Positions 19,376 through 57,965 of a stretch of 64,000 nucleotides of DNA are shown piece by piece (position 1 is the first letter of the stretch; each line of letters begins with the position of its first letter). Location: the NCBI GenBank assembly GCA_902573755.1, contig CACGLD010000001.1, forward strand, positions 103,241 to 167,240, given 5' to 3'. The DNA is from an uncultured Pelagibacteraceae bacterium (GTDB lineage Bacteria > Pseudomonadota > Alphaproteobacteria > Pelagibacterales > Pelagibacteraceae). Both the position numbers and the translations under genes were made by a program. The notes under the pieces were generated by a model. The model saw only the letters and a list, made by a program, of their open reading frames with translations, was not told where the DNA came from and did no database searches.

Positions 19376-20386
19376 TTAAAGTGCTTTTTTGATTTTTTTT
19401 GCAGCATCACTTGAAACCCATTTACTCCAAACACTTTCTTGTGTTTTTAGGAATTCAATTGCAGCATCAGCACCTTCAGCTTGGTTTTCACCCATCCAAA
19501 CTAACATACCGTTCATAACTGGGCCTGGATACGTTCTTTTCTTAAAGTATTCCATACCAGCGTTTCCAGCTGTTTTTTTGAAATTATCAGTTACGATTGT
19601 GTAAACTTCAGATTTTGTCCATGAAGTTTTTTTAGGGTTAGCACATTCTTGCTCTGGTAAAACAATACAACCATCCCAGTTGTCTTTACCACCCCATTCA
19701 CCCATATCCACAGCTCTCATATCATATTTACCAATAATAGCTGTTGGTGACCAATAATAACCAAACCAGTTTTCTCCTCGCTCAGCAGCTTTAGCAATTG
19801 ATCCGTCAAGTCCTGCAGCAGAACCTGTTTCAACAATAGCCCAACCTTTAGCTTCCATGTCCCAAGCTCTAAAATGGTTTCTGTTACTTAATTCACAGTT
19901 CCAACCTGGAGGACAAATGTGGAAACCACCTTTTGATGGATCCTCTGGGTGAGGAAACAAATCCGGTCTTGCTAAAATAGCTTCAGCAGTTGTTAACTCA
20001 GGATGTTTTTTAAGTGTGTGAGGTAATACCCACCAACCTTCACCCAAACCAGTAATTGGCGCTTTATTAAGTGAGTGCATTTTTCCTTCATCAACAGCTT
20101 TATTCAAAGCGATGATAGCAGCGTTAGCCCAAAACTCAGGAGCAACATCTGGCTCACCTTTTTCTTGCATAGATGTAAACGTAGGCATTGTAGCACCAGG
20201 TACTAATTCTACTGAACATCCATAACCTTCTTCTAATATGATCTTATCAACCTCAGCCATAAAGTTTGCTGAAGCCCAGTTCATATTAGCAATCGTTATA
20301 TTTCCACAAGCTGCATTTGCAACACTTCCAAAAGAAGTAAGACCAAACACAACAGCTAGTGAAAGAAGTATTCTTTTAATCTTCAT
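19376..20386 (-). CDS. glycine betaine/choline/DMSP-type ABC substrate-binding protein (OpuAC/ProX)
   Basis: Periplasmic binding protein, 336 residues from the chosen start. I start at the ATG at 20386, which is preceded by GGGAGAAAT at ideal spacing and gives a clean signal peptide (MKIKRILLSLAVVFGL...SVANA); an ATG at 20410 would add eight unlikely residues. Aromatic residues typical of quaternary-amine cages occur (for example Trp residues in GEGWWVLP, GYYWSP). First gene of the minus-strand unit binding protein, permease, MetF-like, DmdA-like. Confidence 0.92.
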   Translation of the reverse strand: MKIKRILLSLAVVFGLTSFGSVANAACGNITIANMNWASANFMAEVDKIILEEGYGCSVELVPGATMPTFTSMQEKGEPDVAPEFWANAAIIALNKAVDEGKMHSLNKAPITGLGEGWWVLPHTLKKHPELTTAEAILARPDLFPHPEDPSKGGFHICPPGWNCELSNRNHFRAWDMEAKGWAIVETGSAAGLDGSIAKAAERGENWFGYYWSPTAIIGKYDMRAVDMGEWGGKDNWDGCIVLPEQECANPKKTSWTKSEVYTIVTDNFKKTAGNAGMEYFKKRTYPGPVMNGMLVWMGENQAEGADAAIEFLKTQESVWSKWVSSDAAKKIKKAL

Positions 20387-20430
20387 TATTTCTCCCAACA
20401 TTTGATTCATTTAAAAGTTAAATTGAACAT

Positions 20431-42099: not shown

Positions 42100-42158
42100 A
42101 AAAATAGCCAAAACCTCCCTAAATTATTAATAAATTTAAATCTGCGACACTATTGCGA

Positions 42159-42198
42159 TTGATAATCATTCTCATTGCGAATAGTTATCATTCTCAAA
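42159..42198 (+). promoter_or_regulatory. tandem Fur-type boxes upstream of the ferric binding protein gene
   Basis: Two copies of ATCATTCTCA (42165-42174 and 42187-42196), each preceded by an AT-rich GATA or TTA, resemble iron-responsive Fur boxes (GATAATCATTCTCATT and TTATCATTCTCA). Their 22-bp spacing is two helix turns. They lie 25-65 bases before the start codon of an iron transporter binding protein, which supports iron-dependent repression. Confidence 0.7.
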
Positions 42199-42223: not shown

Positions 42224-43252
42224 ATGAGAAAATTAGCAATTTTAGCGTTAATTACATCTTTATTTGTATCAACTTTTGCGATTGCGAATGAGGTAAATGT
42301 ATTTAATGCAAGGCATTATAAGGCTGATGCTGAAATGTATGGAAAATTTACAGCAGCTACAGGAATTAAAGTAAATTTAATTAATGGAAAATCAGGAGCT
42401 TTAGAAAAAAGAATAGCCGAAGAAGGAGCAGATTCTTCAGCTGATCTTTATATTACTGCGGATGCTGGAAGATGTGGCGCAATGGATGCCAAAGGTTTGC
42501 TTCAACGTGGTTTATCATCTGCAACAATTAAAGCATCTGTTCCACAAAACTTTAGAACCAACAAATGGGTTGGAGTAGCAAAAAGAGCAAGAATTATTTA
42601 TTACTCACCTGAAAGAGTTAGTGGAGCTGAATTATCAGGTTTGACTTATGAAAGTTTAGCTGATCCAAAATGGAAAGGTAGATTGGTAATAAGAAAATCT
42701 AGCAATATTTATAATAAATCTCTTGTAGCTTCATTAATTGCAAATAATGGAAAAAAAGCTACAGCTGAATGGGCAAAAGGTGTTGTTGCTAACATGGCTA
42801 GAGATTCTAAAGGAAACGATAGAGCTCAAATTATGGCAGTAGCAGCTGGCGAAGCTGATATTGCAGTAGCTAACACTTATTATTTAGCACTTATGCTTTC
42901 AGGTAAAAAAGGTGCTGAACAACAAGCAGCTGCAAAAAAAGTTAAAGCGTTTTTTCCAAACCAGCAAGGTAGAGGAACACACATGAATATTAGTTGTGCT
43001 GCTTTAGTTAAAGGTGCACCTAATAAAGCAAACGCAATTGCACTTGTTGACTTTTTGTTATCACCAGAGTCTCAGGAACACTTTACGAATAATACGTTTG
43101 AGTTTCCAATGATTGATGGTGTTTCTCCAAGTCCACTAGTTGTGAATAATTTAGGGTTAGATTTTAAACAAGATTTAGCAACTAAAGTTTCAACTTATGG
43201 AAAAAATCAAGCTGCTGCATTAGAAGTTATGACAGCTGCTGGTTGGAAGTAA
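42224..43252 (+). CDS. ferric iron ABC transporter substrate-binding protein (FutA/FbpA/SfuA type)
   Basis: Periplasmic Fe(III) binding protein, 342 residues, with a signal peptide cut after IAN. The EVNVFNARHYKADAEMYGKF start, WVGVAKRARIIYYSPERV and paired tyrosines (TYYLALML region) are typical iron-site pieces. A good SD (TTAAGGAG) precedes the ATG. Matching permease and ATPase genes follow at 44119 and 45735, separated by a small gene and a peroxiredoxin gene. Confidence 0.93.
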   Translation: MRKLAILALITSLFVSTFAIANEVNVFNARHYKADAEMYGKFTAATGIKVNLINGKSGALEKRIAEEGADSSADLYITADAGRCGAMDAKGLLQRGLSSATIKASVPQNFRTNKWVGVAKRARIIYYSPERVSGAELSGLTYESLADPKWKGRLVIRKSSNIYNKSLVASLIANNGKKATAEWAKGVVANMARDSKGNDRAQIMAVAAGEADIAVANTYYLALMLSGKKGAEQQAAAKKVKAFFPNQQGRGTHMNISCAALVKGAPNKANAIALVDFLLSPESQEHFTNNTFEFPMIDGVSPSPLVVNNLGLDFKQDLATKVSTYGKNQAAALEVMTAAGWK

Positions 43253-43258
43253 CAAATA

Positions 43259-43444
43259 GTGAAAAAGAATTTATTCAATTTTGATTTAAGTAATTCTTCT
43301 GTCATGAGCGGTTCACTTGAGGGTCAGATAACATGTGAACCATGCTCATCAGAGTGTGAAAAGATTAAAAGAAAAATAAATAATAGAAAATTATCTGAGA
43401 TTGAAAAAGACGAGGCTCTAGACATCCTCACTCCTTTTAAATGA
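43259..43444 (+). CDS. small cysteine-containing protein, unknown
   Basis: 61-residue frame from GTG at 43259 with a Cys-x-x-Cys-x3-Cys motif (CEPCSSEC) in its middle and a basic helical C-terminus. It begins six bases after the futA stop. It could bind a metal, which would suit the setting, but I do not recognise it. Confidence 0.5.
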   Translation: MKKNLFNFDLSNSSVMSGSLEGQITCEPCSSECEKIKRKINNRKLSEIEKDEALDILTPFK

Positions 43445-43464: not shown

Positions 43465-43524
43465 GGTGCCCACGTCACTCTCCTTTAGGATCTTTACCCT
43501 TTCCTAAAAATTGTCGTGGGCATT
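43465..43524 (+). ncRNA. nested-hairpin element before the peroxiredoxin gene
   Basis: Outer arms TGCCCACG (43467-43474) and CGTGGGCA (43515-43522) close a domain, extended by two G-U pairs; within it TTTAGGA (43484-43490) and TCCTAAA (43502-43508) form a second stem with an 11-base loop. The element fills most of the 88-base gap and ends about 10 bases before the peroxiredoxin ATG, and there is no U tract, so it is not a simple terminator. It may be a leader RNA or a protein-binding site. Strand is not settled by sequence. Confidence 0.45.
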
Positions 43525-43532
43525 AAAAAAAT

Positions 43533-44078
43533 ATGATTGAAGGATTTAAAATACCCCAAGTAACTTTTAGAATTAGAGAAGGTGATACTTCGGATAATGA
43601 AATTGCATGTGCAATTGGTGGGAAGTGGACAAATAAATCTACTGATGATTTTTTTAAAAATAAAAGAGTAATTTTATTTAGTTTACCTGGTGCATTTACA
43701 CCAACATGTTCATCTCAACAATTACCTGGATTTGAAAAAAGTGCTGATGAATTAAAAAAACATGGTATTGACGAAATTTATTGTTGTTCAGTAAATGACT
43801 CATATGTCATGAATGCTTGGTCAAAAAAAATGGGTATTTCTAATGTTAAAGTAATACCAGATGGATCAGGACTTTTTACAAAATATATGGGAATGTTAAT
43901 CTCCAAAGACCATGATGGATTTGGCCAAAGAAGTTGGAGGTATATGGCAGTTATTAATGATGGTATTGTTGAAAAATGGTGGCAGGAGCCTGGAATTAAT
44001 AATTCAGGCTCAGATGATGACCCGTATATAGAAACCACACCAGAAAATACACTAAAATACCTTTCTGAGTCAAAGTAA
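43533..44078 (+). CDS. peroxiredoxin (Prx5-like)
   Basis: 181-residue thiol peroxidase reducing hydrogen peroxide and organic peroxides. The peroxidatic Cys59 lies in LPGAFTPTCSSQQLPGF and the Arg of the active site follows at about residue 130 (GQRSWRY). Compact, no signal peptide. The location within an iron-uptake unit fits oxidative stress coupling. Fusion partner glutaredoxin is absent. Confidence 0.93.
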   Translation: MIEGFKIPQVTFRIREGDTSDNEIACAIGGKWTNKSTDDFFKNKRVILFSLPGAFTPTCSSQQLPGFEKSADELKKHGIDEIYCCSVNDSYVMNAWSKKMGISNVKVIPDGSGLFTKYMGMLISKDHDGFGQRSWRYMAVINDGIVEKWWQEPGINNSGSDDDPYIETTPENTLKYLSESK

Positions 44079-44118: not shown

Positions 44119-45738
44119 ATGTTAAAGAATTTAAATATCTGGTTTCTATCCTCTTTATTGGTGTCTATAGGCGTATTAATTCCAATCGTTACAGTTTTTT
44201 TTAGTTTTTTTGAAGAGACTTCAAATTATTATCAAGTATTAAAAGATACTTTTTTATTTGAGTATATTTTTAATTCTTTCTCACTACTATTCTGTGTCTT
44301 GATCTTAACATTTATAATAGGTACTGCATCTGCATACTTGGTTTCATTTTATAAATTTCCTTTAAGTGATTTCTTTAAATGGGGTCTTATACTTTCTTTC
44401 GCTGTTCCACCTTACATTTATGCATATTCTTTGACGGCCTTTTTTGAAAATTATGGTACAGCTTTTACAATCTTGACAAATTTATTTGGAGAAGGGGAAT
44501 ACAACAAACATATCCCAAAGTTCGATGGTGTTCTTGGAGCGGTACTTTCCCTTTCATTTTCATTATACGCTTATGTATATATTCTTTCTAGAGCATCATT
44601 TTTATATCAATCTCAAAACTTAATTGACTTAGGAAGAAGTTTAGGTTTTTCAAAATTTAAATCTTTATATTCTTTGATATTACCAGCTGCTAGGCCAGCT
44701 ATAGTCGCTGGATTATCTCTTGTTGCGATGGAAACATTAGCGGAATTTGGTGCAGTTGATTTTTTTTCAATAAACACCTTAACCACTGGAATTTATAATT
44801 CATGGATTACATTTGATGACTTGGCTTTTTCAAATAGATTGTCCTTTTTCTTACTAATATTTATATTTACATGTTTTATAATTGAAAATTTTTCTAGAAA
44901 AAAAGCTAAATATCATTTTAATTCAAGAGGTGGATTTAAACAAAAAGAAAAAATTATATTGTCTGGAAAAAAATCTTTTTTTGCATTTTTGTTTTGTTTT
45001 ATTATTTTCTTTTTAAGTTTTTTATTTCCTTTAAGCCAAATGTTATATTGGACAATTAAATTTCCAGAAAATCTCTTTGATATTGATGTAATTTCACTTA
45101 CTTTAAATACAATTTATTTGGTGATTTTATCTAGCATAGTCTTGATTTTATTTTCTTTAATTTCAAATTATGGAAATAGAGTTTCTAGAAACAAAGTTTT
45201 AAATTTTTTATCAACTATATCCATATCAGGTTATGCTATTCCAGGTGTTATTTTAGCTGTAGCATTTATTACTTTTATTGCTTGGTTTGATGAAAATATT
45301 GTTAAAACTCTAGGATTTTTGTCTATTAAAAAAATCTTTATTGGTTCTGTTCTTGGTCTTGTTTTAGTTTATTTTGTAAGATTTTATTCATTAGCATTTA
45401 ATGGAATTAAGTCAGGCTATGAAAAAATAAATATTTCAGTTGATGAAAGTTCATATCTACTTGGTTACTCCAAAAAGAAAACCTTCATGAATATTCACGT
45501 TCCTTTCTTAAGAAATTCTCTTTTATTTGTAGCTATATTGATTTCTTTAGAAATAATAAGAGAGTTACCAATAACCCTTATTTTAAGACCATTTAATTTT
45601 GAAACTTTTGCAACAACCGCTTATATATCTGCATCTGAAGATTTGTTAGAAGCTGCAGCAGTTCCATCATTATTTTTAATTTTAATTGCAACTATATTTA
45701 TTATGTTTACATCTAAATATATTCTTAGAGAAAAATGA
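44119..45738 (+). CDS. ferric iron ABC transporter permease (FutB/FbpB type)
   Basis: 539-residue double-length permease with about twelve membrane segments and two permease domains, each with an EAA-type loop (SLGFSKFKSLYSLILPAARPA and SYLLGYSKKKTFMNIHVPFLRN). The stop overlaps the ATPase start as ATGA. Together with FutA at 42224 and the ATPase at 45735 it completes an iron importer. Confidence 0.92.
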   Translation: MLKNLNIWFLSSLLVSIGVLIPIVTVFFSFFEETSNYYQVLKDTFLFEYIFNSFSLLFCVLILTFIIGTASAYLVSFYKFPLSDFFKWGLILSFAVPPYIYAYSLTAFFENYGTAFTILTNLFGEGEYNKHIPKFDGVLGAVLSLSFSLYAYVYILSRASFLYQSQNLIDLGRSLGFSKFKSLYSLILPAARPAIVAGLSLVAMETLAEFGAVDFFSINTLTTGIYNSWITFDDLAFSNRLSFFLLIFIFTCFIIENFSRKKAKYHFNSRGGFKQKEKIILSGKKSFFAFLFCFIIFFLSFLFPLSQMLYWTIKFPENLFDIDVISLTLNTIYLVILSSIVLILFSLISNYGNRVSRNKVLNFLSTISISGYAIPGVILAVAFITFIAWFDENIVKTLGFLSIKKIFIGSVLGLVLVYFVRFYSLAFNGIKSGYEKINISVDESSYLLGYSKKKTFMNIHVPFLRNSLLFVAILISLEIIRELPITLILRPFNFETFATTAYISASEDLLEAAAVPSLFLILIATIFIMFTSKYILREK

Positions 45739-46796
45739 AAAATAATTTTTTAGAAATTAAAGGTGTTGATTTTATAATTGGTGGAAAAACCAAAGTTAAA
45801 AACGCATCATTTGCAATTGAAAATGAAGGAGAAACTTTGTGTATTTTAGGTCCTTCAGGAATTGGAAAAACAACAATCTTAAGAACAATTGCTGGCTTGG
45901 AGAATGTTGAAAAAGGTTCAATTAAATTAAATGGAAAATTAATATCTTCCAAAGATAAACATGTTGAGCCTGAAGACAGAAATGTATCTTTAGCTTTTCA
46001 AGATAATAGCTTGTTTCCACATTACACTGTTGAAAAGAATATATTGTTGGGCACTGAGAGAAATAAAGCAAAAAAGAAAAAAAAACTTACTTTTAAAGAG
46101 ATTATTGATTTACTGGATATTTCAAAAATACTTAAAAAATATCCACATGAAATAAGTGCTGGAGAGGCACAAAGAGCATCTCTTGCAAGATCTTTACTTA
46201 CACAACCTGATCTTTTGTTGTTAGACGAACCGTTATCGAATGTCGATCAAAGCTTTAAAGAGGAAATTCAAGTAAGATTAAAAAAAATTTTAACCAAATT
46301 AAAGATTACAACAATAATCGTAACTCATGACTCATACGAAGCTTTTTATTTGGGACACAAATGTGCAATTATATTAGATGGTCAAATCAAACAATTTGAT
46401 GATCCTTATAATGTTTATCACTTTCCAAATTCAGTCGAAGTAGTAAATTTTTTAAATCGTGGAATTTTAATTCCAGCAAAAGTTACAGGAGAAAATTCAC
46501 TAGAAAATGAGGATCTTGGAACAATTAAAGGTAATTTTATTAAGCATTATCCAAAAGGTTCAAATGTACAATTATTATTGCAACCAGAAGATCTTGAGCA
46601 CGATGATAAAAGTAATTTAAAACTAGAAGTAGTTGATCGAAAATTTAGAGGTACCAACTTTATTTATACTTTAAAAACTAATAGCGATTTATTAATACCA
46701 GTTTTTGTTCATTCTCATCACGAACATCAACATGAAGCTGATGAAAAGTTCGGAATTAAAAGACCGATTAATATTGATCACATAGTTTGTTTTTAA
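45735..46796 (+). CDS. ferric iron ABC transporter ATP-binding protein (FutC/FbpC type)
   Basis: 353-residue ATPase with Walker A GPSGIGKTT (about residue 38), signature ISAGEAQRASLARSL, Walker B LLLLDEPLSNVD and a C-terminal TOBE-like extension. The signature reads SAGEAQ in place of SGGQQQ, a mild variation. A histidine-rich tail (HSHHEHQHEADE) near the C-terminus is notable for an iron system. Confidence 0.93.
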   Translation: MKNNFLEIKGVDFIIGGKTKVKNASFAIENEGETLCILGPSGIGKTTILRTIAGLENVEKGSIKLNGKLISSKDKHVEPEDRNVSLAFQDNSLFPHYTVEKNILLGTERNKAKKKKKLTFKEIIDLLDISKILKKYPHEISAGEAQRASLARSLLTQPDLLLLDEPLSNVDQSFKEEIQVRLKKILTKLKITTIIVTHDSYEAFYLGHKCAIILDGQIKQFDDPYNVYHFPNSVEVVNFLNRGILIPAKVTGENSLENEDLGTIKGNFIKHYPKGSNVQLLLQPEDLEHDDKSNLKLEVVDRKFRGTNFIYTLKTNSDLLIPVFVHSHHEHQHEADEKFGIKRPINIDHIVCF

Positions 46797-56948: not shown

Positions 56949-57965
56949 ATGTTTAAACTTATATCTAAAACTATAGCAGCTGTAGCTATTGTTTCAGTTG
57001 CTTTATTTGGCTCTGCAAATGCAAAGACTTTAAAGATTGAAACACACTTTACTGCTAGTTCACCTAATGGTGAAGTTGCGGCTCAATTTGCTAAAAATGT
57101 AGAAATGTTTTCTGGCGGAAGCTTAAAAATAGAAATGTTCTACTCATCATCAGTAACAGGAAAATCTGCTGAGGTGTTTAACTCTGCACAAACTGGAATT
57201 ATCGATTGTGATATGACTGGTGCTGGTTACCAAACTGGTAAAAATGCAGCGTTCCAATTCGCAGGTGATGTAATGGGTGGATACGATAACCCTTATCAAC
57301 AATATGAATTCTTGAATTTCCCAGGAGCTCAAGAAGCTGTTGATGCACTTTACAACAAATATGGAATGACTTTAATTGGTTGGTGGATACCAGGACATGA
57401 GTCTCTAATTTCTAGCAAACCAATTCCAGATGTTGCATCTATCAAAGACTTTAAATTTAGATCACCTCCAGGAATGGAAAGTATGATCTTTACAGCATTA
57501 GGTGCTAAGCCAATAGTAATGGACTTTGGTGAAGTTCCAACTGCTTTACAAACTGGTCTAATCGATGGTGCTGACTATTCATCTTTAGCTACTAACTATG
57601 CAGGTGGACACTATGAGCAAAACAAATATGCTACATACCCAGGTTTCCACTCTATGCCAGCTGACCATTTAGCTTGTAATACAAAAGTATGGAAAAAGCT
57701 AAAACCTCATGAAAGAGGAGCGATGAAAGCAGGTATTGAGATTGCTGGTAGAACAATCACTAGCTTGGTTGAGAGAAAAAACGCAGAAGCAGTTAAAGCT
57801 TTAAAAGAAATGGGTGTTACACTTCATGACTGGTCTAGAGAAGATAGACTTAAGTTCAGAAATGCTGCACTTAATGCTTGGCAGGAATGGAAAAAGAAAT
57901 CTCCTGAAGCTGCTGCTCTTATAGATATACATACAGCTTATATGAAAGCTAACGGTATCCTATAA
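56949..57965 (+). CDS. TRAP transporter substrate-binding protein (DctP/DctP7 type)
   Basis: 338-residue exported binding protein with a signal peptide ending in SANA and the start KTLKIETHFTASSPNG. The FKFRSPPGMESMIFTALGAKPIVMDFGEVPTALQTGLIDGAD region contains the Arg that binds the substrate carboxylate and is typical of sugar-acid/mandelate-type TRAP proteins. Upstream GAGGAAG ribosome site. A strong hairpin (57990-58011) separates it from dctQ. Confidence 0.93.
   Translation: MFKLISKTIAAVAIVSVALFGSANAKTLKIETHFTASSPNGEVAAQFAKNVEMFSGGSLKIEMFYSSSVTGKSAEVFNSAQTGIIDCDMTGAGYQTGKNAAFQFAGDVMGGYDNPYQQYEFLNFPGAQEAVDALYNKYGMTLIGWWIPGHESLISSKPIPDVASIKDFKFRSPPGMESMIFTALGAKPIVMDFGEVPTALQTGLIDGADYSSLATNYAGGHYEQNKYATYPGFHSMPADHLACNTKVWKKLKPHERGAMKAGIEIAGRTITSLVERKNAEAVKALKEMGVTLHDWSREDRLKFRNAALNAWQEWKKKSPEAAALIDIHTAYMKANGIL

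Follow-up and report, generated by a model that had tools for sequence, protein, structure and literature searches.

A potC RNA at the binding protein-permease junction of a SAR11 iron-type ABC operon and its likely role in transporter stoichiometry

Among the ABC operons of Escherichia coli for which differential mRNA decay is known, it is in every case the binding-protein gene that is stabilised, and RNA structure at the 3' end can protect the mRNA of the gene upstream of it (PMC5927463). Stem-loops located after binding-protein genes are also known from clostridia, where many of them are low in U and cause partial termination, besides influencing the stability of the upstream mRNA (PMC9045158). 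In HTCC1062, iron limitation raises the mRNA levels of the transporter genes sfuC, sfuB and sfuA by 16, 10 and 5 times, respectively, as measured by microarray, and the SfuC protein by 27-fold (PMC2864753).

The potC RNA family was described in 2010 by Weinberg et al., in whose main text it occupies one table row with the entry 'Marine only' (PMC2864571). The family is catalogued in Rfam as RF01751, and our search of the literature found no paper on potC RNA function.

Structure and identity of the element

The window, that is, the whole 64-kb stretch of DNA that was analysed, belongs to a Pelagibacter-like SAR11 bacterium, and the close relatives of its peroxiredoxin come from Pelagibacteraceae and Candidatus Pelagibacter single-cell genomes. 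The two nested perfect stems (8 and 7 bp) that a preliminary description had noticed before the peroxiredoxin gene are confirmed by the sequence and by RNAfold on the forward strand, at 43465-43524 (Table 1), and the fold contains two additional pairs at 43476-77/43512-13. Its minimum free energy is -23.6 kcal/mol against a mean of -11.05 for dinucleotide shuffles (z = -4.58), and none of the 200 shuffles is as stable as the native fold.

Table 1. Features of the potC locus (positions within the window)
Feature	Position	Strand	Basis and remarks
Two Fur-box-like sites before fbpA	42155..42195		15/19 and 14/19 to GATAATGATWATCATTATC
fbpA/sfuC-like periplasmic binding protein	42224..43252	+	SBP_bac_6/SBP_bac_8 (Pfam); iron role from HTCC1062 synteny
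61-aa ORF (orf61)	43259..43444	+	CxxCxxxC pattern; first two Cys in 117/117 distinct homologues, third in 99/117
potC RNA, Rfam RF01751	43460..43529	+	cmscan 93.8 bits, gathering 44, model 1-70/70
Outer stem, 5' arm	43465..43474	+	8 Watson-Crick pairs (43467-43474 with 43515-43522) and two G-U pairs at the base, extending to 43465/43524; RNAfold; columns 23/84 and 26/81 covary
Inner stem, 5' arm	43484..43490	+	7 bp; RNAfold; columns 47/63 and 49/61 covary
Apical loop UCUUUACCCUU	43491..43501	+	11 nt; UUACCCU invariant (alignment)
Inner stem, 3' arm	43502..43508	+	RNAfold
Outer stem, 3' arm	43515..43524	+	RNAfold
Peroxiredoxin (prx)	43533..44078	+	Redoxin PF08534; optional, located between potC and fbpB where present
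fbpB/sfuB-like permease	44119..45738	+	BPD_transp_1
fbpC/sfuA-like ATPase	45735..46796	+	ABC_tran

The hairpin is certainly a potC RNA, as judged from its match to RF01751, which covers the full length of the model at more than twice the gathering score and has no non-standard pair. This match is the only one reported by cmscan across the whole window, where no known riboswitch family gave a match, and the genome portion searched contains one copy. The element is hence not the new RNA that had been suggested as a possibility, but one already catalogued. It shares its stems, loop and marine source with the family, as well as having transporter or peroxiredoxin genes as neighbours; peroxiredoxin neighbours are also part of the family description. 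In contrast to the 2010 paper, the RNA is here assigned to named SAR11 genomes and to a single operon junction, and the namesake 'potC' gene is an iron-type permease.

A covariation search in relatives, which the preliminary description had advised as a check, found compensatory changes in both the outer and the inner stem. In 44 distinct copies, 97.9% of the cells are paired, compared with 38-60% after one side has been shifted by 1-3 columns, and cells with a double change number 63, against a shuffled mean of 19.8. Counted by pairs, a double change is present in 6 of 13, a value that 108 of 500 shuffles reach and that the slid controls do not (at most 3), so that the count exceeding the shuffles is that of cells and not that of pairs. 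These compensatory changes support the predicted potC fold.

While the stems covary, the loop sequence UUACCCU never varies among the 44 copies. A mere barrier needs no fixed loop, and this invariance is therefore unaccounted for by the barrier role favoured below and leaves room for a specific partner. Together with the covarying stems, it speaks for the loop being the site of a trans-acting factor, be it a cold-shock protein such as CspE/CspL, some other protein that binds RNA, or a small RNA, with which the bacterium would exert iron-dependent control on the translation or decay of prx-fbpB or fbpA. Cold-shock proteins suit a pyrimidine-rich single-stranded loop. The abundance of CspE and CspL tracked iron in HTCC1062, and they have been proposed to favour the translation of SfuC (PMC2864753). 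Sister clades, however, manage without the UUACCCU loop, and we regard this kind of control as unlikely.

Directly 3' of the potC 3' arm stands AAAAAAAT, with A's and no U tract. This flank argues against an ordinary intrinsic terminator of fbpA-orf61, in which case prx-fbpBC would be expressed from a promoter of its own, and so do the terminator scan, which does not report the potC hairpin, and the finding that at only 11 of 48 potC junctions are 5 or more of the 8 nt that follow the predicted stem T. U-tracted hairpins do follow other SAR11 binding-protein genes, but for potC itself such a terminator appears highly improbable, and the initial judgement that this is not a usual terminator holds.

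The iron-type operon and the placement of potC

The potC stem begins 20 nt past the stop of orf61, and the ATG of the peroxiredoxin gene lies 8 nt downstream of the stem. The protein encoded by orf61 has no match in Pfam or NCBIfam; the ORF, which the preliminary description does not mention, is conserved and found at most of the junctions studied.

The gene order fbpA-fbpB-fbpC-azlC is the same as that of sfuC-sfuB-sfuA-azlC in HTCC1062 (PMC2864753). Searches in Pfam and NCBIfam identify the fbp products as binding protein, permease and ATPase, with no iron label, and the iron specificity of the operon rests on this synteny and on the Fur-like boxes before fbpA, which together bear out the earlier reading of the locus as an iron unit. 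Boxes of at least 14/19 occur in 177 of 179 fbpA upstream regions, these loci being related, whereas random stretches contain them in 11 of 300 cases. Judging by these predicted boxes, it is most likely the fbpA promoter that receives the iron signal. A private promoter was sought for potC, and only weak 9/12 matches, no better than background, were obtained. As for the arrangement of the boxes, the palindromes in the window (42155-42195) neighbour each other, and relatives show enrichment of such sites at this place.

Among 399 sampled genomes of the genus, RF01751 scores above the cut-off in 42 (46 at E <= 0.001), with one copy each. The order-level sample yielded a single match outside the genus (L128, from another family, 33 bits), which is below the cut-off and lies antisense within an NADH-dehydrogenase-subunit-like ORF, and was dismissed as chance. 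Carriage by phages was also rejected: when IMG/VR was scanned for the core pattern, 12 contigs matched, but they lack the outer stem and the fbp genes, and 11 have nearly identical flanks that look like phage coding DNA.

Every fetched locus above the gathering score shows the order fbpA/sfuC - orf61 - [potC] - (prx) - fbpB/sfuB - fbpC/sfuA, and where the prx gene is absent, potC directly precedes fbpB. Downstream of the RNA there are prx and then fbpB in the window, and a transporter or peroxiredoxin gene in all placed relatives. Because it is found at one syntenic place wherever checked, potC can be assigned to the iron-type ABC operon. The distance from the orf61 stop to the stem is 17-23 nt when prx is next and 13-25 nt when fbpB is next, while that from the stem to the next start is 8-66 nt and 49-150 nt, respectively. 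The spacing is thus narrow upstream and loose downstream, and potC therefore appears to be tied to the upstream gene.

This placement bears on the proposal that potC is a riboswitch or sensor leader through which iron or oxidation would control the peroxiredoxin. Its filing in Rfam under the type Cis-reg, the complexity of its nested stems with their conserved loop and the closeness of the prx start in the window are all consistent with it. However, when prx is missing, the same RNA stands at the longer distances given above before fbpB, and no alternative terminator or anti-SD arrangement is seen. In addition, relatives carry unlike hairpins instead, and the Fur-like promoter would already give iron control. 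We consider such a leader very unlikely. The link to peroxiredoxin and oxidation made in the preliminary description is unsupported, because the same RNA precedes the permease gene where the peroxiredoxin is absent. An iron-sensing leader is likewise unneeded, since the Fur-like boxes before fbpA most likely carry the iron signal, and it is disfavoured by the unlike hairpins found at the same junction in relatives and after non-iron binding-protein genes.

Hairpins at the junction in relatives and after other binding-protein genes

Stable structure at this junction extends beyond potC. Among 121 distinct gaps between orf61 and the next gene from across the genus, z is below -2 in 113 and below -3 in 98, with a median of -4.5. 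The junction hairpins mostly retain a GUG..C/G..CAC outer end, and those other than potC are internally unlike, including plain perfect stems, AAAUGGGGAUUU, GUCUCCUU and UUACCCCCUUUU. Of those that were rescanned at a loose threshold, only L127 and L203 scored weakly as potC.

Another nested hairpin of considerable length, UUCUGUU..AGUGUUC..UCAAG(A/U)UGUCUCCUUAAUUAU..GAACACU..AACAGAA, is located upstream of prx in L047-L055, L069 and L190, and upstream of fbpB in L180 and L187. Its loop is conserved and it varies little (double change in 1 of 28 pairs). The four loci scanned (L047, L049, L053 and L055) gave no Rfam match, and this hairpin is possibly an unlisted RNA.

In sister clades (L141-L153, L169, L171, L174, L179, L182 and L196), the junction loop shows complementarity to the fbpB Shine-Dalgarno region, either as UUUACCCU with AGGGUAAA, over 8 nt, or as AUUACCC with GGGUAAU, forming a candidate translational pseudoknot. 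This complementarity at the fbpB start is what favours the alternative that the potC loop pairs with the downstream Shine-Dalgarno region and represses translation, but p for single loci is no lower than 0.005-0.1, and these loci are relatives of one another. The loop of canonical potC matches the start over about 3-6 nt at best, which is no better than in shuffles (3 nt for the copy in the window, p = 1.0), and no conserved GGGUAAA exists nearby. Pairing of this kind, although present in the sister clades, is absent from canonical potC and was rejected as its mechanism, for which we hold it to be extremely improbable.

In the five SAR11 genomes analysed, most of the remaining binding-protein genes also have a hairpin within tens of nt of the stop. 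By type, they follow SBP_bac_3a (5/5), AapJ-like (5/5), PotD-like (5/5), Ugp-like (2/2) and OpuAC (8/8) genes, and one SBP_bac_3 type (SBP3b) is devoid of them (0/4 genomes), which speaks against the role favoured below. The ten downstream genes tested comprise five of the permease family, two ABC ATPases, two with no family match and a MORN-repeat gene 3' of one OpuAC. The U-tracted hairpin before the latter may be a plain terminator, as may some U-tracted hairpins of standalone OpuAC genes.

The control sequence of 464 kb was made up of the window together with 20 stretches from a single complete genome, and folding was applied to its 63 gaps of 25-200 nt between co-directional genes. With labels taken from family searches, z is below -3 in 6 of 7 gaps after binding-protein genes and in 6 of 56 other gaps (p = 9e-5). 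Four of the six strong hairpins among the latter follow binding proteins too (one OpuAC and three DctP), and relabelling gives 10/11 versus 2/52 (p = 5e-9), with a label set that was completed post hoc, when the strong hairpins were already known, and in which 3 of the 11 gaps are TRAP-type (DctP). A tally over all 63 upstream proteins revealed no further DctP, OpuAC or SBP_bac_3 among the families listed, although single-member families may be hidden.

In the window, strong hairpins that have no long U tract stand after an OpuAC gene (19379-20410, reverse strand) and after a DctP gene (56949-57962, forward strand). Outside the binding proteins, a bacteriorhodopsin-like (proteorhodopsin) gene (L273, 9389-10165) has a strong U-tracted hairpin before the next co-directional gene.

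A likely role in transporter stoichiometry

The explanation we favour is that potC acts as a junction hairpin raising the amount of binding-protein mRNA relative to that of permease mRNA, and we consider it probable. The RNA is a stable stem-loop placed soon after the binding-protein unit, formed by fbpA and orf61, and before the translocator genes, with prx inserted in some lineages. The E. coli and clostridial systems have the same anatomy, which suggests that potC serves to keep the fbpA-orf61 mRNA in excess. The graded rise of the sfuC, sfuB and sfuA mRNAs in iron-limited HTCC1062 is in keeping with such a role.

Two routes, separately or together, could lead to this outcome. The downstream part of the transcript would decay or be cleaved, and the hairpin would then block 3'-5' exonucleases, leaving a stable fbpA-orf61 mRNA. 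Alternatively, the RNA polymerase would stop at the hairpin in part of its passes. Either way, the fbpA-orf61 mRNA would exceed that of (prx)-fbpBC. Because there is no U tract, we lean towards 3' protection over termination. The transcription of potC as part of the operon, its action by protection or attenuation and the resulting stoichiometry are all likely. The processing site put forward in the preliminary description comes close to this explanation, while the leader proposed in the same claim is unsupported.

Like the structure at the malE-malF junction of E. coli (PMC5927463, ref. 8), potC lies between the binding-protein unit and the permease and has a stable stem without a U tract. It differs in being present as a single copy, rather than repeated throughout the genome like REP, in its lineage-specific invariant loop, and in being known here from its sequence only. 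With the internal terminators of Ruminiclostridium (PMC9045158), many of which have few U's, it shares the position of the stem-loop after a binding-protein gene and a similar folding energy. However, A's follow potC, and termination in SAR11 is only presumed by analogy.

On top of these lineage-wide 3' hairpins on most SAR11 binding-protein genes, potC could act as more than an inert barrier, its UUACCCU loop being bound by an RNA-binding protein or small RNA of SAR11 through which the ratio of binding protein to permease would follow iron status, a tentative extension that we judge unlikely.

An orphan since 2010, when it was listed as a marine RNA, potC is now placed at a single junction of a SAR11 iron-uptake operon. 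This placement, the unlike hairpins occupying the same slot and those after other binding-protein genes point to a concrete and likely role, namely in setting how much binding protein is made per transporter. SAR11 bacteria are among the most abundant in the ocean, and sfuC has been proposed as a marker of iron limitation. For users of metatranscriptomes, this carries the warning that a difference between the signals of sfuC and sfuB may have post-transcriptional causes.
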